A stretch of DNA of 32,584 nucleotides from Chloroflexota bacterium (GTDB lineage: Bacteria > Chloroflexota > Dehalococcoidia > CAUJGQ01), in assembly GCA_963170165.1 (NCBI GenBank), contig CAUJGQ010000095.1, positions 1-32,584 of the forward strand, given 5' to 3'. Position numbers and translations under genes: made by a program. The notes under the pieces are model-generated. The model was not told the DNA's origin and did not search any database. It saw only the letters and a list, made by a program, of their open reading frames with translations. Every line of letters starts with the position of its first letter. Position 1 is the stretch's first letter. Below, in pieces: positions 10,891 to 32,584 of the stretch.

Positions 10891-11598
10891 TCAGCGGTCA
10901 GAGGCCGCCGGGGTGGTGTAGCCGACTCCCGGCACTGTCAGCAAGATTACCGGCTTCGATGGATCAGTCTCCAGCTTCTGGCGCAACCGCGACACATTGA
11001 CGCGCAGCATATGCAGTTCGTTGGCGTACTCGCTGCCCCAAACCGCCTGCAAAATCATGGTGTGCGTGAGCACCCGCCCAGGGTGAGCAGCGATGTAGGC
11101 AAGCAGGCGAAACTCAAGTGGGGTGAGGGTGATCACCTCGTCATTACGGCGAACGCTGTGCTGGTCGAGGTCAATCACGATGTCATCTACCCGGAGCAGT
11201 CCTGAAGCAGGCGCGCCGGCGCTCCATGCGGTACGCCGCAGGACGGCTTTGACCCGCGCAATCAGTTCCCCCGCGGCAAATGGCTTCGTGACATAGTCAT
11301 CGGCGCCAGCATCAAGGCCGCGAATCTTGTCCTGTTCGCGCCCAAGCGCGGAAATCATCACCACCGGCACCTGCGAACGCGCGCGCAGCCGCCGGCAGAC
11401 CTCCACGCCATCAAGGCCCGGGAGGATCACATCGAGCAGGACGGCATCCGGATCGACCTGAGCTGCGAGGTCGAGCGCCGCGGGGCCCTCGCCGGTAACG
11501 GTGACCTCGTAACCGGCCAGCTCGAGCGTCCGGCGCAGCAGGCGTTGCATGGGCCGGTCATCTTCGACAACCAGGATGTGGGTGGTCCGTTCCGCCAT
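10891..11598 (-). CDS. OmpR/PhoB-family response regulator, KdpE-like
   Basis: A 235-residue two-domain regulator. The receiver domain (residues 1-120) has the acidic pair in LVVEDDRPM, phosphoacceptor Asp56 in AVLLDVILPG, Ser83 in the Thr/Ser switch position (VVMISALGR) and Lys105 in DYVTKPF. The C-terminal winged helix shows LTPLEFRLLAYIAAHPGRVLT and HMLRVNVSRLRQKLE, ending VPGVGYTT, all typical of OmpR/PhoB DNA-binding domains. Its overall pattern is closest to KdpE as far as can be judged by eye. ATG at 11598 has GGTGGAGGG directly upstream; the frame to 11640 is less likely. No histidine kinase gene is adjacent, so its partner is elsewhere or it is an orphan. gltB is divergent from it, and an 11-bp-phased direct repeat lies between them. 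Confidence 0.92.
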   Translation of the reverse strand: MAERTTHILVVEDDRPMQRLLRRTLELAGYEVTVTGEGPAALDLAAQVDPDAVLLDVILPGLDGVEVCRRLRARSQVPVVMISALGREQDKIRGLDAGADDYVTKPFAAGELIARVKAVLRRTAWSAGAPASGLLRVDDIVIDLDQHSVRRNDEVITLTPLEFRLLAYIAAHPGRVLTHTMILQAVWGSEYANELHMLRVNVSRLRQKLETDPSKPVILLTVPGVGYTTPAASDR

Positions 11599-11722
11599 CC
11601 CTCCACCTCGCGGCAGTTCGCAGGCACGCGGAATGCGCACGTCGCCAGCGGCAGCGCGGCCGTGACGATTGTACCAGGCCGCTCACGATGACGAGCCGAA
11701 CCGCGCCGGCGTCATACGCGGA

Positions 11723-20592: not shown

Positions 20593-21459
20593 CTAGAGTT
20601 CACGGAAGAAGTCAATGAAGGAGTACACGGCGGGGGTTACGGCAATGAGCATGGTGGCGGGCATGAAGAACAGCGCCACCGGGATCATCATCTTCACAGC
20701 CATCTTCTGGGCAGATTCCTGTGCTCGCTGGCGGCGGCGGGTGCGCAGTGCATCGGCCTGGACCCGCAACGCGGCCGCAATGCTGACACCGCTGCGTTCG
20801 GCCTGTACGACCGGCCGGATAACGCTGTCGAGTGGTTTGACGCCTGTCCGAAGGCCAAGGTCCAGCAGCGCTTCCTGACGGGGACGCCCCACGGCAATCT
20901 GCCGCATCGTCTTCTTGAGCTCAGCGCCAAGCGGGCCGTCCGTTACCTCGCCCACGCGAAGCAGCGCGGCATCCAATCCGAGCCCGGCCTCCACACAGGT
21001 GACGAGCAGGTCGAGCATATCGGGCAGTGACCGGGTGATCTTGGTTCTGCGGCCCCGCAGCCGTCCCTGAAGCCAAAGCCAGGGAAGTGCAATCCCGGTA
21101 AGCAGTGCCAGAGGCAGCCAGCGGATCCCCCAGGTATAAGCGCCGATGCCCGCGACGGCCGCAGCGCTCGTGCACCATAAGATGACGAACGTTTCAAGTC
21201 GTACCGGCTCGCCCGCGGCCACAAGCATACGGTCCAGGCGATCAAGCCAGCGCGAGGGCAGCAGTCCAGCGAGCACCTGACCGGCGCGGCGGCCGGCCGG
21301 CATCAAGATCCGTGCGGCGAGGGGCGCATCGGCTGCAACCATCTGGTTACCGGACAGCGCGCGCGCACGCACTCGCGCCGGTCGTGGCGGGCGCATCCCC
21401 AGCGCCACCACCAGCAGTAGCACGGTTCCGAAGGTCGTCAGGCCGATGAGTGCCAGCAT
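20593..21459 (-). CDS. tadC: Tad pilus inner-membrane platform protein TadC
   Basis: A 288-residue type II secretion F-domain protein. It has an N-terminal membrane helix, two central hydrophobic helices (near FVILWCTSAAAVAGIGAYTW and LPLALLTGIALPWLWLQ), the F-domain LPDMLDLLVTCVEAGLGLD with GVSIAAALRVQADALRTRRRQ, and a final membrane helix MMIPVALFFMPATMLIAV. The order and length match TadC, which with TadB forms the membrane platform against which the TadA ATPase works. ATG at 21459 is one base after the tadB stop and has GAGGTGTGAC upstream, so the genes are tightly coupled. Confidence 0.92.
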   Translation of the reverse strand: MLALIGLTTFGTVLLLVVALGMRPPRPARVRARALSGNQMVAADAPLAARILMPAGRRAGQVLAGLLPSRWLDRLDRMLVAAGEPVRLETFVILWCTSAAAVAGIGAYTWGIRWLPLALLTGIALPWLWLQGRLRGRRTKITRSLPDMLDLLVTCVEAGLGLDAALLRVGEVTDGPLGAELKKTMRQIAVGRPRQEALLDLGLRTGVKPLDSVIRPVVQAERSGVSIAAALRVQADALRTRRRQRAQESAQKMAVKMMIPVALFFMPATMLIAVTPAVYSFIDFFREL

Positions 21460-21460
21460 G

Positions 21461-22435
21461 TCACACCTCGTAGGTCGATGCGATTTGCAGCATCACAATC
21501 ACCCCCACCACCTCCAGCGCTGCTGCAAGAAGCAGCACACCCTGGCCGCTGCGCCGCTCGAATAGCGGCCTGACGAGCTCGTAGTCCAGTAAGGACAAGG
21601 ACAACAGAATCAGCACGGGTACTGCCGCGATGACGTACGCCGAAAGGCGCTGTTCGGCGGTCAGCGAACGCATCTCGTTGTGCAGCCGAACACGCTCGCG
21701 CATCGTGTGGGCGACGTTATCGAGGATTTCGGCGAGGTTGCCGCCAACTTCACGCTGGACCAGGATTGCGGTCACGATAATGTGAAGGTCCGGGCTGCGC
21801 ATCCGGCGGTCAAACTCATCGAACGCCTCTTCAACGGTTAGGTTGGCGGCGATCTCGGAGCGCACCCGGTCCAGCTCGTCGCCGAGTACGCCTCCCATTT
21901 GCTCGATCACCGCGTCGATTGAGGAGAGCAGGCCGATACCGGAACGCAGTCCTCGGGCGAGCATATCCAGCCCGTCTGGTAAATCGTTCACCAACGCGGA
22001 CCGGCGACGATTGAACCGCCAGCGCAGCAGCAATCGCGGGAGTACCAGACCGGCGCCGGACGCCGCCGCCACGCCGAGCATCCCGAGCCCGCGGGCACCC
22101 AACACCGCGGCAGCCAGAGCCGCCAGCGTCACGGCCAGCGCAGCGCTGCCGACCAGGAACTCGCCGGCCCGCAACGGCACGGCAGCGCGGTCTAGATCAT
22201 CTGCGAGTCGCGCAGCGCTGGGGCTGTGACGGAGAATGGCTTGCAAGATCGGGATGCTGCTGTAGTTATCGAAGCGAAGGGCAGAACGGCCGGAGGTGAT
22301 GGGTGAACGATCGTTGTGCGCGATCCGCGTAACGCGCTCGCGCAGCCGGGCGCGGCCATCGGTGACGCGCCGCTCGATGCCAATCGCCAGCAGCACCACC
22401 GCGACAAACGCTGTCAATGCGATCGCCAGCAGCAC
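21461..22435 (-). CDS. tadB: Tad pilus inner-membrane platform protein TadB
   Basis: A 324-residue type II secretion F-domain protein. It has an N-terminal membrane helix and central helices (LVGSAALAVTLAALAAAVLG region), then the F-domain with LPDGLDMLARGLRSGIGLL, VQREVGGNLAEILDNVAHTM and RERVRLHNEMRSLTAEQRLS, and C-terminal membrane helices around YVIAAVPVLILLSLSLL. VGGNLAEILDNVA is characteristic of TadB. The GTG start at 22435 has an excellent GGGGAGGAG 5 bases upstream. It lies 24 bp after tadA. Confidence 0.93.
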   Translation of the reverse strand: MLLAIALTAFVAVVLLAIGIERRVTDGRARLRERVTRIAHNDRSPITSGRSALRFDNYSSIPILQAILRHSPSAARLADDLDRAAVPLRAGEFLVGSAALAVTLAALAAAVLGARGLGMLGVAAASGAGLVLPRLLLRWRFNRRRSALVNDLPDGLDMLARGLRSGIGLLSSIDAVIEQMGGVLGDELDRVRSEIAANLTVEEAFDEFDRRMRSPDLHIIVTAILVQREVGGNLAEILDNVAHTMRERVRLHNEMRSLTAEQRLSAYVIAAVPVLILLSLSLLDYELVRPLFERRSGQGVLLLAAALEVVGVIVMLQIASTYEV

Positions 22436-22459
22436 GGCTCTCCTCCCCTGACGACTGCG

Positions 22460-23794
22460 CTAGAAGCGCCGGCCTCGCGCAAACGTCTCGGTGTGCAAGT
22501 CAAAGCCAAACGCCTGCAATCGATCCGCGAAGCGCGGCCGAACGCCGGTCGTCTCGAAGTAGCCCGCAACGGGCCCTGCGCCCATCGAGCCCGTGATCAC
22601 GTAGCGGTAAATGTCCTGTGTGGTGACGGTCGGTCCCTCCATCCCGGCGATTTCGGTGATGTGGGTGACCCGCCGGGCGCCATCAGGCATCCGGGCGATC
22701 TGCACCACCAGATGGATGGCAGAGGCGATCTGCTCGCGGATCGCCGAAATGGGGATGTCATACCCGGCCACCAGCACCATGTTCTCAATGCGTGCCAGCG
22801 CGTCGCGCGGTGAGTTCGCGTGCAGCGTGGACATCGACCCCTCGTGGCCGGTGTTCATCGCCTGCATCATGTCGAACGCCTCACCGCCGCGGACCTCCCC
22901 GACGATGATCCGGTCGGGCCGCATGCGCAGCGCGTTGCGGAACAGGTCGCGCTGTGTCACTTCGCCACGGCCCTCGATGCCGGGGGGGCGCGCCTCTAAC
23001 CGGACCACGTGGCGCTGCCGCAACTGCAGCTCAAGCGGGTCCTCGATGGTGACGATCCGTTCGCCCGCTCCCAGGCAGGCTGAAAGCGCGTTAAGCAGGG
23101 TCGTCTTGCCGGTGCCGGTCCCGCCGGAGATCAACACGTTGATGCGAGCGGTGATGCAGGCGCGCAGGAATGCCACGGTCTCATCGTTAAGTGTGCCAAT
23201 CGTGATCAGATCGTCCAGGCCGTAGCGATCGGTGCGAAACTTGCGGATCGTGAGGATTGGGCTGTCCGGCGCCAGCGGCGGGATGATGACGTTGACGCGC
23301 GATCCATCCGGCAGGCGCGCATCGACCATCGGCGATGCCTCGTCGATGCGCCTCCCCAGCGGTGCCAGGATACGCTCCACGACCCGCATCACATGGGCTG
23401 CATCGCGAAATTGCAGCGGCGACTCGTAGAGACGCCCATCGCGCTCGAAGTACACGAGGTCTGGTGCGTTCACCATGATCTCGGAGATCTGTGGATCCCG
23501 CACCAACGGATCGATTGGCCCGTAGCCAGCGATCTCGTCGACGACCGCGGCGATGATCTCTTCCTTTGTCTCGCCGATGATCTGCGGTGCATCGACCGAC
23601 AGCAGGGCGCGGGCCGCGCTCTCGATTGCCTCGCGCGACTTGCGGCCGCTGCTGTCGCTGATGACGGCCGGGTCAAGCTGGCGGACGAGGCGCTGATGCA
23701 GCCACTGTTGCACCTCCTCCGGCTCTCGCCCGTCAGGCCGTACCCCGGCGGCGATACCGTTGCCCGTGAACTCTGACCGTCGCCACTGGCTCAT
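22460..23794 (-). CDS. tadA: Tad pilus assembly ATPase TadA (CpaF)
   Basis: A 444-residue secretion ATPase of the TadA/CpaF branch, the cytoplasmic hexameric motor that drives Flp pilus assembly. Signatures in order: [14 protein letters not shown] and [18 protein letters not shown] in the N-terminal domain; Walker [16 protein letters not shown] at 223-237; Asp box [12 protein letters not shown] at 248-258; Walker [16 protein letters not shown] at 295-309; and His box [12 protein letters not shown] at 322-333. All catalytic residues are present and the length is normal. ATG at 23794 follows the tadZ stop by 3 bp with GGGGTAGGCA upstream. Confidence 0.95.
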
Positions 23795-23797
23795 TGC

Positions 23798-25012
23798 CTA
23801 CCCCACTCGCACCGGCGCCCAGCGCAGAAGCCGTCGTACACTCGCCACTGGCCCGCGTCCGCCGGGACCAGCCATGCCACTGACAGCAGCGGCCAGATCT
23901 CGAAACGTCCCGGCAAAGGCCGATTTCGGCCGGCTGAAGACCAAGCTGTCGCCTACCTGCGCTGCAGACGGCACCCGCCGGTCGTACGGCACTGTCCAGG
24001 CGATTGAGCGGTCCAGCGCCTGTTGCACATCAGCCGGGCGCAGGTCATCGCGGGCGCGCGTCAGATTGAGCACCAGGCGTACCTTGTCCGTTGGGCAGTC
24101 CCAGCGCTGCAGAATCCGCAGCGCCACCTTTGTATCGGAGACGCTGGACAAGTCCATGCTGGTGACCAGCAGCGTCATCGTGGCGCTGCGGACGCATTGC
24201 TCGACCACCGGGTCGAAGACATCCGGCGTGTCAATCACCACGAAGTCATAGGCCTCGCTCAACAGGTCGATGAAGCGTTCCACCCGGTCCGGCGTGACGC
24301 CTCGCCACTCGTCAGGGTCTGCTGGTCCGGTGTACACCTGGACGCCGCTGGCATGTGCGACACCTAGCGCAGCGATGCCGGCACGGTCCATCCGCGCTAC
24401 CGTGCCGATCAACGTGGTAACTGGCTGGGCAGGCGCCAGGTTGAGCATGGTAGCCACGTCACCGAAGTGGGTGTCAGCGTCGACGAGCGCCACCGTGCGC
24501 CCGGTGACCTGGCGCAGCGCGAGCGCGAGGTTGATGGCCACGACGCTCTTGCCAACGCCGCCCTTGGCGCCGCTGACGGCCACCACCGTGCCACGGACAG
24601 CCACGGTGGCATGGCCCGCGCGGCGGAGCTGACGTTGCTCCTCCTGCTCCAGCGCAGCGAAGATGGCGGCGCGCAGATCATCGCCGGCGAGCGGCCGCAC
24701 AAGGTAGTCGCGCACGCCGGCACGGACGGCGCGGCGGACATCAGCGGCGCCATCCATCGTGGAATACGCGATCACCGGGGTTTCCAGCAGCAACCGGGCC
24801 AGACCCTCGATGGTCTCAAGGGCGCGGTTGGGCGGGTCCTCGATGCCGACCAGGACGGCATCAGGCAGCGTCTCGCCGGCGGCCGAGGAGGCGCTGACCC
24901 CGTAGCGTGCCTCACCGGAGACGGTGAAGCCGGCACGCTGGAGCAACTTGCGCAGCTCCACGCGGCTGTCGGCGTTTTCATCCACGATGAGGACGCTCGG
25001 TTGCTTGGCCAC
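23798..25012 (-). CDS. tadZ: TadZ/CpaE pilus-localisation ATPase with pseudo-receiver domain
   Basis: A 404-residue protein with an N-terminal response-regulator-like domain (1-125) and a C-terminal MinD/ParA-type ATPase. The receiver domain keeps VLIVDENADSR and a Lys-free VRPLAGDD end, but the phosphoacceptor position reads AVLVGIEDPP, so the usual Asp is absent. The ATPase has the deviant Walker A SGAKGGVGKSVVAINLA at 147-163, VALVDADTHFGD and FVVIDTPDVFD. TadZ proteins place the pilus machine at a cell site. The GTG start at 25012 has AGGAAGGG upstream. It lies 36 bp after cpaB and 3 bp before tadA. Confidence 0.92.
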   Translation of the reverse strand: MAKQPSVLIVDENADSRVELRKLLQRAGFTVSGEARYGVSASSAAGETLPDAVLVGIEDPPNRALETIEGLARLLLETPVIAYSTMDGAADVRRAVRAGVRDYLVRPLAGDDLRAAIFAALEQEEQRQLRRAGHATVAVRGTVVAVSGAKGGVGKSVVAINLALALRQVTGRTVALVDADTHFGDVATMLNLAPAQPVTTLIGTVARMDRAGIAALGVAHASGVQVYTGPADPDEWRGVTPDRVERFIDLLSEAYDFVVIDTPDVFDPVVEQCVRSATMTLLVTSMDLSSVSDTKVALRILQRWDCPTDKVRLVLNLTRARDDLRPADVQQALDRSIAWTVPYDRRVPSAAQVGDSLVFSRPKSAFAGTFRDLAAAVSGMAGPGGRGPVASVRRLLRWAPVRVG

Positions 25013-25048
25013 GGGCTCATCCCTTCCTGATCGGCGTGTGCCGGTCGC

Positions 25049-25885
25049 CTACCGGCTCACCGGCCCGGGCGAGGGCAGCACTATCGGCTCAGTTACCGGG
25101 GCCAGCGGCCGCTCCTCGCGGTCTCCGAATGGCCGGAGCGCCAGCCGGATCTTGCCTTCGGTCTCAGCCAGGAACAGCAGCTGTGCTTGTGCCGGGTCTA
25201 CCGCCAGCGTCACACTGCGGTAGCGCTCGCGCGTGGCGGCCAGCCGGCCGTTGCCATCGTCACGCGAGCGGCCATCCGGACCGGCCTCGGTCAACTGCGC
25301 TGCGTCGCTGTCAACGGCCAGCACCTCGATGTTCTGCAGTATGGTGAAGGCGCCCTTCGGCTTCAGCTGACCGGCGGCCGGCGTGCCACCGGTCAGCTTC
25401 TCGACTTCGACGCTGACGATCACGTCGACGAAGTCCCCCGGGCGAATGTGACCGCCGCCGCTGATCACCTCACTGGTGGCAATGGCCATTGCCCGTTTGC
25501 CTGGCGGCACGATGTAGGACAACGCCTCGGCGGTGGTAGCCTGGATGACCATCCCCGGGACAACCTGAGCGCCAGCCGCGATTGGATAGCGGGAGCGCAA
25601 CCCCACCACGCGTGCCGTCTCCTGGTATGCGGCCGGCACCGCGGCTGCGGGCTGAACCCGGCGCACTTCGAGCATGTCGCTGGTGATGGTGGTGGCGATA
25701 GGGATATCTCGCCTGGCGACAACCACCGTGGCTGTGGAGGAAGATTGCGCCTCGCGGTCGCGATCGCGGGCGCGCACGTACGCCACCAGCAACACGGCGG
25801 TCGCAGTGCCCATCAGGACGGCTGCCAGCAATACCCAGGTGCTGCCGCGTGAGCGCACCCCTCGCTGCGCTGTGATTCCAGCCAT
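25049..25885 (-). CDS. cpaB: Flp pilus assembly protein CpaB/RcpC
   Basis: A 278-residue protein with a basic N-terminus, one membrane helix at about 15-36 (STWVLLAAVLMGTATAVLLV) and an extracytoplasmic SAF domain (about 53-115: VVVARRDIPIATTITSDML, LRSRYPIAAGAQVVPGM). A RcpC-type C-terminal domain follows, with HIRPGDFVDVIVSVEV and SVTLAVDPAQAQLLFLAETEGKIRLALRP. In diderm bacteria CpaB/RcpC works near the secretin; in monoderm lineages it is thought to act in the cell envelope. ATG at 25885 is chosen for GCGGAGGACGGCC upstream and family homology. The frame running to 25990 would overlap the upstream pilus gene. Confidence 0.9.
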   Translation of the reverse strand: MAGITAQRGVRSRGSTWVLLAAVLMGTATAVLLVAYVRARDRDREAQSSSTATVVVARRDIPIATTITSDMLEVRRVQPAAAVPAAYQETARVVGLRSRYPIAAGAQVVPGMVIQATTAEALSYIVPPGKRAMAIATSEVISGGGHIRPGDFVDVIVSVEVEKLTGGTPAAGQLKPKGAFTILQNIEVLAVDSDAAQLTEAGPDGRSRDDGNGRLAATRERYRSVTLAVDPAQAQLLFLAETEGKIRLALRPFGDREERPLAPVTEPIVLPSPGPVSR

Positions 25886-25904
25886 GGCCGTCCTCCGCTC
25901 TGCC

Positions 25905-27392
25905 CTACTCCGAAAGCCGGATATCGCCGTGGTTGACATCGCCGCTGGGGATGAACACATCGCGGAACTCAACCGGGCCGGTAATGTCAATCTCGTAGGC
26001 CACGATGCGCATGATGATGTTGGAGGTCGGGCCTGCTGGCCCCACGCTCTGCGGGCCGATGAGGATGGTGCTGCCCGGCAGGTAGATGGAGCCGTATGGC
26101 GGGTCCGGTAGCCCCATCGTCACGCCAGACTGGATCCGGGTGGAGGCGCTGCAATTGGGCAAGCCACTGTTCGGCCGCGCCTGGAAGATGACCAGCCCCT
26201 CCCACTCGCCCGAGATGGGGGGCGTGACCCGGAACTGCACCTGGTCGTCAAACGTGATGGCGCCACAGACGCGGCGCGGCGGGTTCTGTGCGCCCGGATT
26301 GCGGGCATTGAAGAACAGCACACCGGAGCCCTCGACGACGGTGCCGGGCGAGACGCGCAGTCCGCCACCTGCCAGGTAGTAGATGCCGGCAGACAGCGTG
26401 ATCGGTGTGGAACTGCCGTTGCCATCCAGGTAGATACCGCCCCAGTACACGCCTCCGGTCAATGCACTTCCCGCGGCCACCGTGCACACCACGGGGTTGC
26501 GCATGGTGGTGTGGATAGCGTTGCCATAGTCGCAGGACGGCATGTCCTGCGGGGTGTTAGGTTGCGGCACCGGTGGCAGTCCGTCCTGGCCGAGTTGGGG
26601 CTCATTCACGCCGCCAAACGGGTCGGCCAGCCAGCCTGGCGCCGCGTTTGGGAAGATTGATGACGAGTTCGACAAGAACGGCTGCTGTCCGGTGCACAGG
26701 TCAATCCAGCGCGCATTGATCACCCCGCCGCCCGCGACGGTCATGGTGCGAAAGTCCCCGCCGGCGCAGTTGGCTGCGCCCACCACGATGCCACCACGCG
26801 GCAGGTTCAGCGTCGCCTGTTCCAGACTGAACGAGTCACGCCCGGTGCTGAGCGAGTGCAACACCGGCATCCCGCCCTCGGCGCGACGGCAGGTGGCGTT
26901 GGCGCTAATGGTCACATTGGCGATACCGAACATCCGCTGCGTGCGCCGAACATTAACGGTGATCTGATCGTTAGCGAGCGCGCCGCCACCTCCGCCCACG
27001 GTGCCGGAGGTGCTGACTGCTGGGGCGGGCTGCGCCAGGCTGCGTCCCTCAATGTGGGTGCTGGTCGCACCGCCGGTGTTGTTGCGGGTGCTCGCTTCAA
27101 CGTATTGTTGTGCGATACCCGCGGGGTTCTGGCCGGGCCTTGTTCCGGGCAGGTCAAGGCAGCCGGCCAGCGCGCCGGCATCCGCTGCCCGCTGTGCGGA
27201 CGTGCGGGAGCTGACGGCAATGGCGCCGTTGACCGCCACTAGCCCCAGGATGAAGAGGAACAGGTAGCCGCACGCGACGAGAACCACCACCTGTCCCTGC
27301 TCACCGCGGGGGCCGTCTGCGTGACCCATACGGACCCGGCGGGCCAGCCGCCCGAGCCACGGGATGCGGCGGAGAAGCACCGATCGGCTCAT
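25905..27392 (-). CDS. TadG-like pseudopilin/adhesin-type surface protein
   Basis: A 495-residue protein with the Tad N-terminal domain: a basic start, RGEQGQVVVLVACGYLFLFI at about 30-49, and GAIAVSSRTSAQRAADAGALAG, the usual segment of TadG-like proteins after the membrane helix. The roughly 400-residue extracytoplasmic part is rich in Gly, Asn, Pro and Thr with short beta-like repeats (GGVYWGGIYLDGNG, ITLSAGIYYLAGGGLRVSPG, VVEGSGVLFFNARNPG) and about eight Cys, suggesting a beta-helix-like, disulfide-bonded fold. ATG at 27392 has GGGGCAGGTGTG upstream; the longer frame to 27548 lies antisense-like inside tadE and lacks homology. It lies 25 bp after tadE and 19 bp before cpaB. A role at the pilus tip or in adhesion is possible but inferred. 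Confidence 0.82.
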   Translation of the reverse strand: MSRSVLLRRIPWLGRLARRVRMGHADGPRGEQGQVVVLVACGYLFLFILGLVAVNGAIAVSSRTSAQRAADAGALAGCLDLPGTRPGQNPAGIAQQYVEASTRNNTGGATSTHIEGRSLAQPAPAVSTSGTVGGGGGALANDQITVNVRRTQRMFGIANVTISANATCRRAEGGMPVLHSLSTGRDSFSLEQATLNLPRGGIVVGAANCAGGDFRTMTVAGGGVINARWIDLCTGQQPFLSNSSSIFPNAAPGWLADPFGGVNEPQLGQDGLPPVPQPNTPQDMPSCDYGNAIHTTMRNPVVCTVAAGSALTGGVYWGGIYLDGNGSSTPITLSAGIYYLAGGGLRVSPGTVVEGSGVLFFNARNPGAQNPPRRVCGAITFDDQVQFRVTPPISGEWEGLVIFQARPNSGLPNCSASTRIQSGVTMGLPDPPYGSIYLPGSTILIGPQSVGPAGPTSNIIMRIVAYEIDITGPVEFRDVFIPSGDVNHGDIRLSE

Positions 27393-27417
27393 CACACCTG
27401 CCCCTACGGTCTCCGGC

Positions 27418-27855
27418 TCACTCCAGGCGCATATGCGTGCGGGCCGACATCGCCATGCTGGTGGAGATCGCGCCCAGCGAGAACTTGGATATGAGTCCCG
27501 CCAGTGGTGTATGGAACTGGTAGGTGTACTGGACCCGCACCTCGACATTGGAGCCCGGTTGTTTCGAGGGCGAGTCGTACGTGACGGTCACCTGGCTGGT
27601 TGTCACACCAGCCTTTACCGCGGTGTCCACCACGCGCTGCTGGACGCTAGCGGTGGACGGACGCGGATAGGTGATGGCTAGCCGCGCGCCTTCGCGTGAA
27701 GCGTTCTCAATGACCATCCACGTCTTTAGCGCCCCTGCCGTCTCCGCGATGAAGAACACCAGGATGAAGATGAACGGCAGAATGAGCACGAACTCGACCG
27801 TGGCCGAGCCATGCTCATATCTGCCGTCGCGTCCCCGCAGGGTGTTCAGCTTCAC
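27418..27855 (-). CDS. tadE: TadE-like pseudopilin
   Basis: A 145-residue protein with a short basic leader and a prepilin-like site: Gly16 followed by SATVEFVLILPFIF, with Glu at +5 and Phe at +6. This resembles the Gly/xxxxE-[YF] processing site of Flp-family pseudopilins. One hydrophobic helix is followed by a region with ENASREGARLAITYP and VTVTYDSPSKQPGSNVEVRV, typical of TadE. The GTG start at 27855 has a very strong GGGGAGGAGG upstream and is preferred over the TTG at 27891. Processing would need a TadV-type peptidase, which is not encoded here. It lies 75 bp downstream of the flp pilin gene. Confidence 0.88.
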   Translation of the reverse strand: MKLNTLRGRDGRYEHGSATVEFVLILPFIFILVFFIAETAGALKTWMVIENASREGARLAITYPRPSTASVQQRVVDTAVKAGVTTSQVTVTYDSPSKQPGSNVEVRVQYTYQFHTPLAGLISKFSLGAISTSMAMSARTHMRLE

Positions 27856-27930
27856 GCCGGCCTCCTCCCCGCCGGCGACCAGCGCGGTCAACGGCAGGGG
27901 ACGCTGCGGTTCCGATACGGCGCCGGCCGC

Positions 27931-28140
27931 TTAGTAGGCCCCGATAAACGTCGTCAAGTTCGTGATGGCGTCATTGATGGCCGTGCCGATGCTGGGCGAG
28001 GCGGCGATCAGCGCCGAAACCACGACGACCACCACGATGCCGGTCACGACGGCGTATTCCACCGAAATCGCGCCGCGTTCACTGACCCGCGCCGCGACGG
28101 CGCGCACCCACGTCTGCAACCAGGACCAGATCGCTGCCAC
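27931..28140 (-). CDS. flp: Flp-family type IVb pilin precursor
   Basis: A 69-residue prepilin. The leader (residues 1-23) ends SERG, and cleavage after Gly23 would leave AISVEYAVVTGIVVVVVVS, with Glu at +5 and Tyr at +6. This matches the Flp processing consensus G/xxxxEY. The mature protein would be 46 residues, mostly one hydrophobic helix with a short tail TNLTTFIGAY, a normal size for Flp pilins. The GTG start at 28140 has GGGAGGACACC upstream. It is the first gene of the presumed pilus operon, with a 75-bp gap to tadE where transcript processing could raise pilin levels. A nested hairpin lies just upstream in its leader. Confidence 0.92.
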   Translation of the reverse strand: MAAIWSWLQTWVRAVAARVSERGAISVEYAVVTGIVVVVVVSALIAASPSIGTAINDAITNLTTFIGAY

Positions 28141-28207: not shown

Positions 28208-28260
28208 TTCCGGGCGGCTACACACGCGACTGAGGATGCCGGACCAGCCGTCAGACGGGA

Positions 28261-28330
28261 ATAAGACGGACATAAGAAAAGTGCATGCGTGTCGAGACGG
28301 TTACGTTTGCACTTACAGATTTCTTATGTG
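28261..28330. promoter_or_regulatory. Head-to-head 11-bp-phased repeats between flp and the VWA gene, candidate operator
   Basis: ATAAG occurs at 28261 and 28272, 11 bp apart. On the other strand the same motif (CTTAT at 28323, CTTAC at 28312) is again 11 bp apart. The inner halves form a perfect 10-bp inverted repeat, ACATAAGAAA (28270-28279) and TTTCTTATGT (28320-28329), with a further arm AGTGCA/TGCACT inside it. This is an AT-rich island in GC-rich DNA between two divergent transcription units. Direct repeats at 11 bp are typical of OmpR/PhoB-family sites. TTGACG at 28335 may be a -35 box for the VWA gene, but its best -10 (TAGTGT, 28361) is 20 bases away. Confidence 0.55.
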
Positions 28331-28381
28331 CCTCTTGACGTTTTCTGCTGCTGCTCGTGCTAGTGTGGCGCGGGTGCTGCT

Positions 28382-29926
28382 ATGTCGAACCTGATCAGAC
28401 GCTGCACGCTCGGTCTGACGCTGCTGGCTGCCTTGGCTGCCCTGTCCAGCCCGGTGCTGGCCCAGCCGCCGCGGCCGGTTACGATCACGCAGGCCGAGGA
28501 TCGAGACGGAGCTGTGACCGCGGTGCTAACGGTGCTTGACGGCGCCGGACGCCTGCAGACGGGTCTACCGCCGAGCGCCTTCCGCTTCTGGGTGGACGGC
28601 GTTGCGGTTACCTCGACCGACGTGCGGTACGCCACCGATCTGCAGGCGGGCCTGTCGCTCGTGCTGGCGATTGACGTTAGCGGCAGCATGGCGGGCGAAC
28701 GGCTGACGGCGGCCAAGCGCGCCGCGATCACCCTGTTGGGCACGTTGAGCCCCGCAGACCGGGTATCGCTGCTCGTCTTTAATCAGGCCGTTGCGTACTT
28801 CGTTGACTACACCGGCGATCACGCTGCGGTTCAGGCCTCTGTCAACAGCTTGGGAGCACAGGGCAACACGTCACTGTACCGCGCTGCAATCGCGGCGGTC
28901 GATAAGGCACTGGCCGGTCCGCTCCCACGGCGGGCGGTGGTGCTGCTGACGGACGGCGAGAATATCGAGCCAGGCGGCACCGTTACGCGAGGGGACGCGC
29001 TCGAGCGGGCACGGCAAACCGGTGTGCCAGTGTACGCCGTTGGTCTCGGCAGCGAAGCCGACCAGCAATTCCTGGATGAGCTCGCAGCGGTCACACGCGG
29101 TGCGGCGCGCAATACCCCACAGCCAAGCGGCCTGGACGCGCTATACCGTTCTCTGGCTGAGGAGTTGCGCGGACAGTACCTCACTCGTGTCGTGCCCGCG
29201 CCGGTAGCACCTGCTCCGGCCCACGTGCTTCGTGTCCGGGTCGCCACCACCGCCGGGGAGTTCGAAGACCAGATTAGCTTCGCCGGCGCGTCGCTCACGC
29301 TGATCGCCACACCTACGCCAACGCCGTCCCCGTCACCATCGCCAGTCGCAACCGCAACAGCGCTGCCGGTGGCGACACCAGCGCCACAGGTAACGGCTGT
29401 GCCGGAACCGGTAGCGGTGGTGGAGTCTGCCGCGGGACGTGGCTGGTGGTTCGCTGCGCTCGGCGCGCTGGGGCTGGCCGCAGCCGTGATGCTGACATGG
29501 TGGGGCTGGCGGCGGCAGGGCGCCCGCCCGCCCGCCGTCGCGACGCTGGAAGGAACGGCACTGCCACCAGTACCGCTGGCGCGGCGGGGGGCGACGCCGG
29601 CGGCAGCGCCGGCGCGGCTGGAGGTTGTCGCCGGGCCGGCCACCGGCACCATGCTGCACGTGGGCGACGAGCCGGTCACGGTGGGGACCGATGACCGCTG
29701 CTCGCTGGTGCTGCCGGCCGAGGGCCTGCAGTTGGAGCGGCGCTATGCCCGGCTGTGGCGGCGGGACGGACGCTACATGCTGCACCGGCTGGAGCCGGAT
29801 CGTACTGGTGCGGGAGAGGCGCCACCGGCGCAGTGGCTGGTACTAGAGGATCACGATGAGTTCTCCATCGGCCCGCATCGCCTCGCCTTCCGCCTGCTGG
29901 AGCCGGAGCCATCTCTTCGTCGGTGA
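28382..29926 (+). CDS. Surface VWA-domain protein with transmembrane helix and cytoplasmic FHA-like domain
   Basis: A 514-residue protein in five parts: signal peptide (1-27, ending VLAQ); a VWA domain with a complete MIDAS, Asp98-x-Ser100-x-Ser102 (AIDVSGSM), Thr163 and Asp191 (LLTDGEN); a Thr-Pro/Ser-Pro linker (about 308-345); a membrane helix (about 354-375) followed by WWGWRRQG; and a C-terminal FHA-like domain (about 412-508, VTVGTDDRCSLVLP to DEFSIGPHRLAFRLLE). The VWA domain should be outside and the FHA-like domain inside. The FHA-like domain lacks the usual Arg of the GR motif and the Ser/His of SxxH. The ATG has no clear ribosome binding site, so leaderless or weak initiation is possible. 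It is divergent from flp. Confidence 0.88.
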   Translation: MSNLIRRCTLGLTLLAALAALSSPVLAQPPRPVTITQAEDRDGAVTAVLTVLDGAGRLQTGLPPSAFRFWVDGVAVTSTDVRYATDLQAGLSLVLAIDVSGSMAGERLTAAKRAAITLLGTLSPADRVSLLVFNQAVAYFVDYTGDHAAVQASVNSLGAQGNTSLYRAAIAAVDKALAGPLPRRAVVLLTDGENIEPGGTVTRGDALERARQTGVPVYAVGLGSEADQQFLDELAAVTRGAARNTPQPSGLDALYRSLAEELRGQYLTRVVPAPVAPAPAHVLRVRVATTAGEFEDQISFAGASLTLIATPTPTPSPSPSPVATATALPVATPAPQVTAVPEPVAVVESAAGRGWWFAALGALGLAAAVMLTWWGWRRQGARPPAVATLEGTALPPVPLARRGATPAAAPARLEVVAGPATGTMLHVGDEPVTVGTDDRCSLVLPAEGLQLERRYARLWRRDGRYMLHRLEPDRTGAGEAPPAQWLVLEDHDEFSIGPHRLAFRLLEPEPSLRR

Positions 29927-30054: not shown

Positions 30055-30780
30055 ATGGATCTGACAACGCCGTCGTGCACCCGGTGGCGATGGCGCCAGC
30101 TTGCCGGTGCTGGGTGTCTGCTGGTGCTCGTCTGGACGGCTACCGTGGCATGCGACAGTATTCGCGACCGGGTGCGGGGTGAGCGTGCGCCGGAGCGCGA
30201 CAGTGGCCAGATGCGCATGACCGTGCGCCGGTTCTCAGATGATGAGCTCCAGCGGCTGCTGCTGCCTGCCGGCGCCGTGCCCGGATCGATGCAGCTGCAC
30301 GCCCAGTACGGCATCCCTAACAGCGCCGTTGCCCTGTACTTCGATAATGCGCCGGATGCGCTACGCCGCCTGGATCAGCTCGGACGCGTTCACGGCGCGG
30401 GCATCGACTACACCTTGCGCGGCGGTCCGCGCTCCGGCGAAGCAGCTGTACAGATCACCGCCACCGTGTCGTGGTACAGCACACTGGCGGGCGCCGGCAT
30501 GGTGCTACGTGACCCGGCGATGGAGCTGGTGTTGCACCGCCTCGGGCTTCCAACGGGTGAGATCGCGCTAGACCAGGTAGCCGATGCGTCGCGCGGCTTC
30601 CGTGGTGTGACGGAGCGTGAAGGTGTGGCCCTGATTGCCTATGCGGTCATGTACCGGCGGCAGAACACCATCGGTTCGGTGCAGGTGCTTGTGCCTGCCG
30701 GCAGCGACGACGGTGGCCGGCTGGCGCTGCAGCTCGCCCGCCGCCAGGCGGAGCTGCCATGGCCCGCACCGGCCAGGTGA
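30055..30780 (+). CDS. Putative lipoprotein of unknown function
   Basis: A 241-residue protein. The basic N-terminus and hydrophobic segment (about 17-30) end in TATVAC with Cys33, a plausible but not ideal lipobox; the mature part then starts CDSIRDRVRG. No known domain was recognised in the remaining roughly 200 residues, which look like a mixed alpha/beta soluble domain (GIPNSAVALYFDNAPDALRRL, AVQITATVSWYSTLAGAGM, VALIAYAVMYRRQNTIGSVQVLV). ATG at 30055 has GGTGGAGGGCGGGT upstream. It sits 128 bp after the VWA gene and 38 bp before the FHA-like gene on the same strand, so it likely acts with them at the outer face of the membrane. Confidence 0.65.
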   Translation: MDLTTPSCTRWRWRQLAGAGCLLVLVWTATVACDSIRDRVRGERAPERDSGQMRMTVRRFSDDELQRLLLPAGAVPGSMQLHAQYGIPNSAVALYFDNAPDALRRLDQLGRVHGAGIDYTLRGGPRSGEAAVQITATVSWYSTLAGAGMVLRDPAMELVLHRLGLPTGEIALDQVADASRGFRGVTEREGVALIAYAVMYRRQNTIGSVQVLVPAGSDDGGRLALQLARRQAELPWPAPAR

Positions 30781-30818: not shown

Positions 30819-32021
30819 ATGGAAATCGCGGATCTCGGTGGCGTGGCTGAGGCAACCGGCCGGGCGCCGGCTCACCGCCACGAGGCGGAACCGGTTGACT
30901 CGGTGACGGCAGCCCTGCGCGTACTGGGACTTGCCGCCGGTGCGGATGCGGGCCTGGTCGAGATCGCCTACTGGACAGCGGTCGAGGAGTGCCATGCTGA
31001 TGACAGCTCCTGCCGAACTGACCGCCGGCGGATGATGGAGCGCATTAATCGTGCACGTCAACTCGCACTGGCCGGCGCTGGCCAGTCCGTGACACCCGAA
31101 CGCCGCCCGCGCGCCCTGCCGCATGTCCCAGCCGGTGCAGCCGGCGCGGTGCTGGCACTGCTGGCCGCGACTCCCGCGGCGTTGCTGCTGGCGGCGCTCC
31201 CATCCGCAAGCGACCAGCGGCTGCCCCTGGCGATTGCGGCCAGCGCGTTTACCATCGCCATCTTGGCTGCCATTGGATGGCTCGTTCGCCGCCGCTTCCG
31301 TCCGCGGCAGACATCACCGTTTGCCGTGCTGCAGCTGAGCGAGTCGGCCCAGCCAAGCGTTGTGCGGGTCGTTCACCGCGCGTTGCGCTCCGGCGCTCTG
31401 GCACGCGGCGCAGCAGAGCAAGTGGCAGAACTTGACGCGGCGCTGTCGTGGATTCTCTCCGGCAGACAGGAGGTCGTGCCGGAGCGGCCGGACCGCGCTC
31501 CCTGGAGCAGGGTGGCCCTGTCCCGGCTCGCGGCGCGCTACCGGCAGAGGCGCGCTTTCGGCGCCCGCTCACCGGCACTCCCGGCGCCGCCCGAGTGGCC
31601 GGATCCCGTCGTGACGGCGCCCGGCGCAGGTGGGATGGATGGCCGGCGTATCCCGGCTGTGACCGCTCCGACGGGCCGGCTGGTCGTGTATGACGCTGGT
31701 GGCCAGGTAGCCACGCTGCCACTGGAAGAAGGGCGGGTCTACGTCATCGGCAGTGGCCTGGGTTGTGACTTGCAGCTTGTCCCGGCCGGTGGCGTTGGCG
31801 AGGAGCACGCGCGTATCCAAGTCCGCGGGAACCGCGTTCGGTACCATCACTGTGATCCGGCCACCGTATCGACCTGCAGCGGGAACGAGGTGTCGTTGGC
31901 GCAGCTTGAGGACCGGGACGAGGTCGTGTTCGGGCCGTATCGCTGCCGCTATGTCGCGGCACTCGCAGAGGGCACGGATCGCGCTGCAGGCTCGCCAGCA
32001 GGCGGCACACTGCAATGCTGA
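30819..32021 (+). CDS. Membrane protein with degenerate J-like segments and C-terminal FHA-like domain
   Basis: A 400-residue protein. Residues 28-84 resemble a J domain (AALRVLGLAAGADAGLVEIAY, then RRMMERINRARQLAL) but carry His-Ala-Asp at about 59-61 where HPD is expected. Two membrane helices follow (about 104-127 and 137-155). A second, shorter J-like helix pair (PFAVLQLSESAQPSVVRVVHRAL) lies at 167-189. The C-terminus (about 285-385) is FHA-like: VYVIGSGLGCDLQL, GEEHARIQVRGN, NEVSLAQLEDRDEVVFGPYRCRY. It keeps one conserved His but has IGS for IGR and EEH for SRxH. All domains should face the cytoplasm. ATG at 30819 has GGCGGGTGAGCG upstream. Its partner may be the VWA/FHA protein; the role is unknown. 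Confidence 0.75.
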   Translation: MEIADLGGVAEATGRAPAHRHEAEPVDSVTAALRVLGLAAGADAGLVEIAYWTAVEECHADDSSCRTDRRRMMERINRARQLALAGAGQSVTPERRPRALPHVPAGAAGAVLALLAATPAALLLAALPSASDQRLPLAIAASAFTIAILAAIGWLVRRRFRPRQTSPFAVLQLSESAQPSVVRVVHRALRSGALARGAAEQVAELDAALSWILSGRQEVVPERPDRAPWSRVALSRLAARYRQRRAFGARSPALPAPPEWPDPVVTAPGAGGMDGRRIPAVTAPTGRLVVYDAGGQVATLPLEEGRVYVIGSGLGCDLQLVPAGGVGEEHARIQVRGNRVRYHHCDPATVSTCSGNEVSLAQLEDRDEVVFGPYRCRYVAALAEGTDRAAGSPAGGTLQC

Positions 32022-32088
32022 AGCTCCGGATAGTACTAGTCTTGACCATGCTGCAACGAACTTGACACGAATTTGGCCGCGATTGCGG

Positions 32089-32116
32089 TTGTCGGTTACG
32101 TACCTGAAACCGACAA
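32089..32116. repeat. Perfect 9-bp inverted repeat upstream of the last gene
   Basis: TTGTCGGTT at 32089-32097 and AACCGACAA at 32108-32116, with a 10-base spacer, lie in the 182-bp gap before the final partial gene. No T-run follows, so it is more likely an operator or leader hairpin than a terminator. TTGACA at 32062-32067 could be a -35 box, but no good -10 was found at 16-18 bases. Confidence 0.5.
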
Positions 32117-32203
32117 TGTCGCCATTCTGGCCATCATCTGGTAAGGCAAGTGGACGGCCGCCACCTAGGTCGTAATCGGTCGAGCAGCGCCGGAGCACCG
32201 CCT

Positions 32204-32584
32204 ATGGACACCGCTACGCCTGACTTGTTGCCGGTGATGGTCTGCTCAAGTGCACCGGTCCCGGTGCCAGAGTGGACACGGCGCGGTCTGGTCGTACTGG
32301 CCGGACCACCGCTGGTGCTCGCGCCAGCAGACCGCCGGCCGGCAGTGATCTTCGTCGACCGCTCGGCGGGGAAGTTCCTGGGTGTGGCACAGCAGCTGCA
32401 GCAGAAGACCGGCGTGACCCTGGTCGTTGACAGCGCGCTGGATGCCGCGTCGTTGGATTCGGCGTGTGATGCCGTGATCGCGGATACGCTCGGTGATCCC
32501 GTGCTGGCGGCGGCCACGGTTGCCGCGCTTATGCGCCGTGGGGTGCCCGCAACTCAGCCGCCCGCGGTGGAGTCGTACGCGCTC
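32204..32584 (+). CDS. Hypothetical protein, N-terminal part (cut by window edge)
   Basis: The frame is open from ATG at 32204 to the window end (127 codons). The visible part has alternating beta-like and helical segments (RGLVVLAGPPLVLA, PAVIFVDRSAGKFLGVAQQL, GVTLVVDSAL, DAVIADTLGDPVLAAATVAAL), suggesting a Rossmann-like or receiver-like fold, but no family was recognised. It has no signal peptide. GCCGGAGC lies about 9-12 bases upstream, a weak ribosome binding site. Codon use fits the neighbours, and the overlapping minus-strand frame is Ser/Thr/Arg-rich and unlikely to be real. It is on the same strand as the VWA/FHA genes and separated by 182 bp with an inverted repeat. Confidence 0.6.
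   Translation, partial: MDTATPDLLPVMVCSSAPVPVPEWTRRGLVVLAGPPLVLAPADRRPAVIFVDRSAGKFLGVAQQLQQKTGVTLVVDSALDAASLDSACDAVIADTLGDPVLAAATVAALMRRGVPATQPPAVESYAL

Follow-up and report, generated by a model that had tools for sequence, protein, structure and literature searches.

Half-sites spaced one helical turn apart are the norm for regulators of the OmpR/PhoB family, and several such systems have been described. ArcA uses direct half-sites with an 11-bp spacing, often three to five in a row (PMC3798270), and the KdpE box consists of the AT-rich half-sites TTTATA and TTTACA separated by 5 bp (PMC3264566). In Caulobacter, the OmpR/PhoB-type regulator CtrA controls the Tad pilin gene pilA from its -35 region, through the box TTAA-N7-TTAA (PMC11264516). 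HP1043 of Helicobacter pylori is an atypical, phosphorylation-independent member of the family, whose 11-bp-phased TTTAAG-N5-TTTAAG half-sites overlap promoters (PMC8345958). As to the pilus itself, CpaL of the Caulobacter Tad system is a VWA-domain, minor-pilin-like protein (PMC13170226).

We compared these systems with a locus in a Chloroflexota bacterium, where a Tad-pilus operon and an operon headed by a VWA gene diverge from a 241-bp gap between the flp start (28140, minus strand) and the VWA start (28382, plus strand). The window, that is, the whole stretch of DNA analysed, spans 32,584 bp of contig C95 and carries the following genes at this locus:

20593-27891, minus strand: tadE, tadG-like, cpaB, cpaE, cpaF, tadB and tadC, the rest of the Tad operon, assigned by Pfam and by an order conserved in relatives
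27931-28140, minus strand: flp-type pilin gene, first in the Tad operon, with a GTG start, GGAGG upstream and weak homology to relatives' flp genes
28382-29926, plus strand: VWA membrane protein (Pfam VWA) with an FHA-like C-terminal tail, whose homologs lie upstream of flp-tad in relatives
30055-30780, plus strand: orf241, no family match
30819-32021, plus strand: 400-aa protein resembling the FHA-like tail of relatives' VWA proteins, no Pfam match
32204-32584, plus strand: 5' part of RR1, an OmpR/PhoB-type regulator, cut at the contig end and completed on contig C48

Pfam assignments in the Tad operon cover TadE, the TadG-like protein and RcpC/CpaB, and the remaining genes were assigned by order and homology. 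CpaE (23798-25012) has a receiver-like N-terminal domain followed by a ParA-like ATPase domain, and its closest public relative (44% identity) comes from an uncultured Chloroflexi MAG. The VWA protein resembles CpaL in being a VWA protein tied to a Tad pilus system, but it ends in an FHA-like tail, and no pilin-like domain was found in it.

The flp-VWA gap, which at about 28265-28370 is more AT-rich than the flanking DNA, holds the following elements:

28233-28238, minus strand: CATCCT, predicted as the -10 of flp-tad and 49 bp away from the start of the left array, a weaker hexamer (p = 0.011 at that offset)
28261-28287, minus strand: left array, with half-sites CATGC (28287-28283), CTTAT (28276-28272) and CTTAT (28265-28261), assigned to the flp-tad operon
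28270-28329, no strand: perfect 10-bp inverted repeat, ACATAAGAAA (28270-28279) and TTTCTTATGT (28320-28329)
28279-28314, no strand: inner inverted repeat, AAGTGCA (28279-28285) and TGCACTT (28308-28314), out of register with the outer repeat
28312-28338, plus strand: right array, with half-sites CTTAC (28312), CTTAT (28323) and CTTGA (28334) at an 11-bp period, assigned to the VWA operon
28361-28366, plus strand: TAGTGT, predicted as the -10 for VWA and 49 bp away from the start of the right array, a spacing shared with relatives (p = 0.005 at that offset)

A preliminary description had treated these elements as one symmetrical operator with two pairs of half-sites. Its ATAAG half-sites are indeed found at 28261-28265 and 28272-28276 on the plus strand, 11 bp apart, and its perfect 10-bp inverted repeat is confirmed, extending to 17 bp at 88% (28263-28279 and 28320-28336). 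Of the two reverse-complement half-sites proposed on the right, CTTAT stands at 28323-28327, whereas the one at 28312 is CTTAC (GTAAG on the other strand). The extra inner arm is likewise present, but the inner and outer arms are 6-7 bp out of register, so the whole does not form a single symmetrical palindrome. Moreover, each arm contains a third 11-bp-phased half-site (CTTGA on the right, CATGC on the left), giving three half-sites per arm instead of a pair.

Both arms, and the relatives' sites described below, have the hallmark of an OmpR/PhoB tandem box, at least two direct half-sites with a centre spacing of about 11 bp, and in this regard they resemble the boxes of ArcA and KdpE. The letters differ from both (CTWACA-N5-CTT plus a looser third half-site), and here two arrays stand back to back between divergent operons. 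The right array reads TTAC-N7-TTAT and the left one TTAT-N7-TTAT; neither arm matches the CtrA consensus TTAA-N7-TTAA, and neither contains a TTTAAG half-site as in the HP1043 consensus. The spacing is that of the family; the sequence is different from the ArcA, CtrA and HP1043 boxes.

Turning to relatives, a VWA/FHA-type gene lies upstream of flp-tad and co-directional with it in the class members G099, G271, G206, G051, G211 and G017, from which it follows that the VWA-Tad pairing is old; a VWA/FHA membrane protein is linked to Tad pili in several families. Where both genes are present in the relatives examined they are co-directional; of all genomes covered, the window genome alone shows the divergent layout. 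The second tad locus of the window genome has no VWA gene. The sole genome of the same family, G001, has no VWA homolog at E <= 1e-30 and both of its tad loci are without VWA, so that no footprint in a close relative was possible; scans of public genome collections returned no useful close relative. OmpR/PhoB-type genes adjoin VWA in G271, G206, G224, G216 and G211, as they do in the window genome; of these five supporting relatives, four are members of a single family (f59).

No ATAAG pairs occur upstream of the relatives' VWA or flp genes, because the box they share is CTWACA-N5-CTT; this, and not the ATAAG repeat, is the real consensus. In the relatives' gaps the box reads CTAACAGTTTTCTT (G271, flp), CTAACACTTTTCTT (G206, flp), CTTACAATTTTCTT (G224, flp) and CTAACAAATTTCTT (G271, regulator). 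The union of these four sites, CTWACANWTTTCTT, which was first spotted by eye with the window half-sites in mind before any testing, has 7 matches with at most two mismatches in 249 kb of relatives' loci, three of them (the second G271 locus, G216 and a weaker G211 site) outside the set that defines the pattern. All 7 fall either between VWA and flp, close behind the VWA stop, or before or between linked regulator genes. Neither box nor linked regulator was found near VWA in the loci of G099, G051, G017, G031, G069, G164, G332, G168 and G201, some of which are short stretches.

When searched in the 4.4-Mb window genome as CTWACANNTTTCTT, the pattern has a single exact match, at 28312, in the right array. 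Background statistics were taken from pattern searches and from a 466-kb sample of this genome. With a position weight matrix (PWM) built from the relatives only, the right array ranks first in the 466 kb, and none of 865,348 background positions scores as well. The left array has two mismatches to the relatives' box and a weak score, reached by 32 of the 865,348 positions. Since the two arrays are an inverted repeat of each other, they do not count as independent matches to the box.

The promoter geometry is also conserved. In six of the seven relatives' sites, the box start is followed at 48-50 bp by a -10-like hexamer; these hexamers are TATCGT, TACGAT, TAGAAT, TAAAAT, TAGTAT and TAACCT, with a poorer GAAAAT in G211, and a spacing as tight as that of the set was seen in 0 of 2000 shuffles. 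On each arm of the window, the best -10 falls at exactly 49 bp from the array start, although the flp-side hexamer does not have the leading T. Placed by these conserved hexamers, the half-sites are predicted near -61, -50 and -39, the proximal one covering about -39 to -35, and transcription is predicted to start near 28373 (plus strand, VWA) and 28226 (minus strand, flp). No ordinary -35 can be made out at the proper spacing, which fits activator dependence. A sigma-70 consensus scan likewise found no promoter, as expected if the array replaces the -35. Two other candidates in this region were rejected, TTGACG (28335) as a true -35 because its 20-bp spacer to TAGTGT is too long, and a sigma-54-like match from 28366 because transcription would begin inside the VWA gene. 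By these comparisons the VWA-side promoter is well supported and the flp-side promoter moderately supported.

Our favoured reading, which we hold to be probable from the sequence comparisons, is that the gap contains the back-to-back, activator-dependent promoters of an autoregulated Tad-pilus/VWA regulon, putatively bound by RR1/RR2. Each arm would be an outward-reading array with three half-sites spaced by one helical turn (11 bp), in which the proximal half-site takes the place of a proper -35 and the -10 stands at a fixed distance. The right array would drive VWA-orf241-FHA-RR1(-RR2), and the left array would drive flp-tadE-tadG-cpaBEF-tadBC.

It is also conceivable, if unlikely, that the right array alone works, for the VWA operon, with the left arm a by-product of inverted duplication and flp transcribed from another promoter. 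The weak PWM score of the left array, its degenerate first half-site CATGC and its poor -10 would all suit such a by-product. However, the relatives' box sits in front of flp, so that an array is expected there, the best left-arm -10 occupies exactly the conserved 49-bp position, and two of the half-sites are good CTTAT copies. Because the left array is the weaker match, control of both operons is less certain than control of the VWA operon. The suggestion in the preliminary description that one OmpR/PhoB-family regulator governs both divergent units gains support from the relatives' box, from the -10 spacing on both arms and from two OmpR-type genes that lie within the VWA operon or immediately behind it, with the flp side probably used but less certain.

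Those two genes were located through the end of the window, since its last 1,213 bp (31372-32584) overlap the end of contig C48, end to end and without gaps, at 94.9% identity. Contigs C95 and C48 probably belong together, split by strain variation; alternatively, the overlap may reflect a recent duplication. The linkage of the complete RR1 and of RR2 to the VWA operon depends on joining the two contigs over this 95%-identical overlap. The two genes are:

contig C48, L114 8110-7358: complete RR1, with a Trans_reg_C domain
contig C48, L114 7397-6666: RR2, after RR1, with a Trans_reg_C domain

Trans_reg_C, the winged-helix output domain of the OmpR/PhoB family, scores 71 bits in RR1 and 71 bits in RR2, and neither protein has a match to the Pfam receiver domain. 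Among the five conserved receiver residues (DD, D, T/S, K), RR1 retains D and S only and RR2 retains none. A response regulator is defined as atypical when at least one of the five is missing (PMC12632262); RR1 and RR2 are both atypical, pseudo-receiver regulators by their residues, and their receivers appear degenerate. In the structure model of RR1 (mean pLDDT 70), the winged-helix C-terminal domain is confident, and the N-terminal part shows alternating strands and helices at low confidence (pLDDT about 45-75).

In a tree of these regulators, RR1 and RR2 cluster with the VWA/tad-linked regulators of the relatives (support 0.948), and the other OmpR-type regulators recovered from the window genome fall outside this clade. 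RR1 and/or RR2 are therefore the most likely candidates for the bound protein. The genome has 25 Trans_reg_C matches and half-sites alone cannot name a protein, so another OmpR/PhoB-type regulator, such as the canonical one encoded at 10891-11640, could bind instead of RR1/RR2; we regard this as quite unlikely, because only RR1 and RR2 belong to the clade of the relatives' VWA-linked regulators and the box co-occurs with that clade.

With RR1/RR2 as the putative activators of both promoters, RR1 and/or RR2 would bind each triple array head to tail and recruit RNA polymerase on both sides, and the VWA/FHA operon, with its regulator genes, and the Tad pilus would be switched on together. As these likely bound proteins are encoded downstream of VWA, the circuit would be autoregulatory and would couple Tad-pilus and VWA/FHA expression. 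We put forward only tentatively a further possibility, namely a self-contained surface-organelle switch, in which twin pseudo-receiver OmpR regulators act independently of phosphorylation on the triple arrays of the two divergent promoters, perhaps in the form of RR1-RR2 heteromers, and the VWA/FHA protein may report the state of the Tad pilus.

Such an arrangement has parallels in the described systems. As CtrA does at pilA, an OmpR/PhoB-type regulator would here act around the predicted -35 position upstream of a Tad pilin gene, although CtrA is a phosphorylated global regulator whereas the candidates here are local and without a canonical receiver. HP1043 shares with this locus the 11-bp-phased half-sites overlapping promoters, which are predicted here, and an atypical OmpR/PhoB regulator, which is a candidate here; its half-site letters are different, and its regulon is broad and essential, whereas here apparently one locus is concerned. 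The literature searched, of which coverage was incomplete, contains no description of the box, of the RR1/RR2 pair or of a link to VWA-Tad loci, and no regulation of Tad pili in this bacterial group is described in those papers. Because the box is defined, the promoter geometry fixed and the candidate regulators two in number, the proposal is directly testable; it also provides a tractable example of OmpR regulators with pseudo-receivers for which a local target is predicted.

The inverted symmetry itself is genuine and clearly exceeds what chance would give. When the 241-bp gap was shuffled with its dinucleotides preserved, 5 of 400 shuffles produced a perfect 10-bp inverted repeat; ACATAAGAAA has 2 copies in the 4.4-Mb genome, both within this gap, and AAGTGCAN10-30TGCACTT occurs once genome-wide, in the same gap. 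Among 100 perfect repeats of at least 10 bp (433 kb of the genome sampled), the arms of this repeat are the most AT-rich, with 20% GC against 36% for the next. Across 393 genomes of the class, the exact palindrome was found in the window genome only. A symmetry so striking and unique in the genome might indicate a repressor operator, the dyad being bound by a dimeric factor of another family. We consider this very unlikely, since the direct 11-bp phasing and the distance to the -10 are retained in the relatives, in sites that, as printed, are single arrays without a dyad; symmetry is therefore not the conserved feature, and we infer activation rather than repression. A role for the repeat as a hairpin within leader RNA is extremely improbable, for although the strand folds better than shuffles (z = -3.1; other strand, -2.2), the predicted starts lie outside the repeat on both sides, no Rfam match was found, and relatives have the array without the hairpin.

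A genome scan for a regulon with an ATAAG-based pattern gave no enrichment: ATAAGN6ATAAG with at most one mismatch has 13 matches genome-wide, and the reversed control has 12. Nothing therefore points to a large regulon. RTAAGN6RTAAG occurs 4 times in the 4.4-Mb genome, 2 of them in the flp-VWA gap, and the element looks like a local rather than a global site. A match on contig C101 overlaps the end of a coding region and was rejected. The other perfect ATAAGN6ATAAG of the genome (C96:65346; L028 1501-1516) was also rejected; it does not match the relatives' box, lies between an OmpR-type response-regulator gene and a permease gene, and is possibly a site of that adjoining regulator, unrelated to the flp-VWA arrays.

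Some further features accompany the regulator genes. The 182-bp gap before RR1 (32022-32203) does not contain the relatives' box and has two CTTGAC motifs, at 32041 and 32061, which might be part of a separate promoter for the regulator genes. In G211 (L056 7384-9029), the genes between VWA and the pilus operon encode a second regulator of the atypical kind and a protein whose match to KaiA_N is weak and below the cutoff. Upstream of VWA-flp in G271 (L053 150-4851), a canonical OmpR-type response regulator with a histidine kinase, two atypical regulators and an HATPase-like protein stand in a row, which suggests a larger signalling module.
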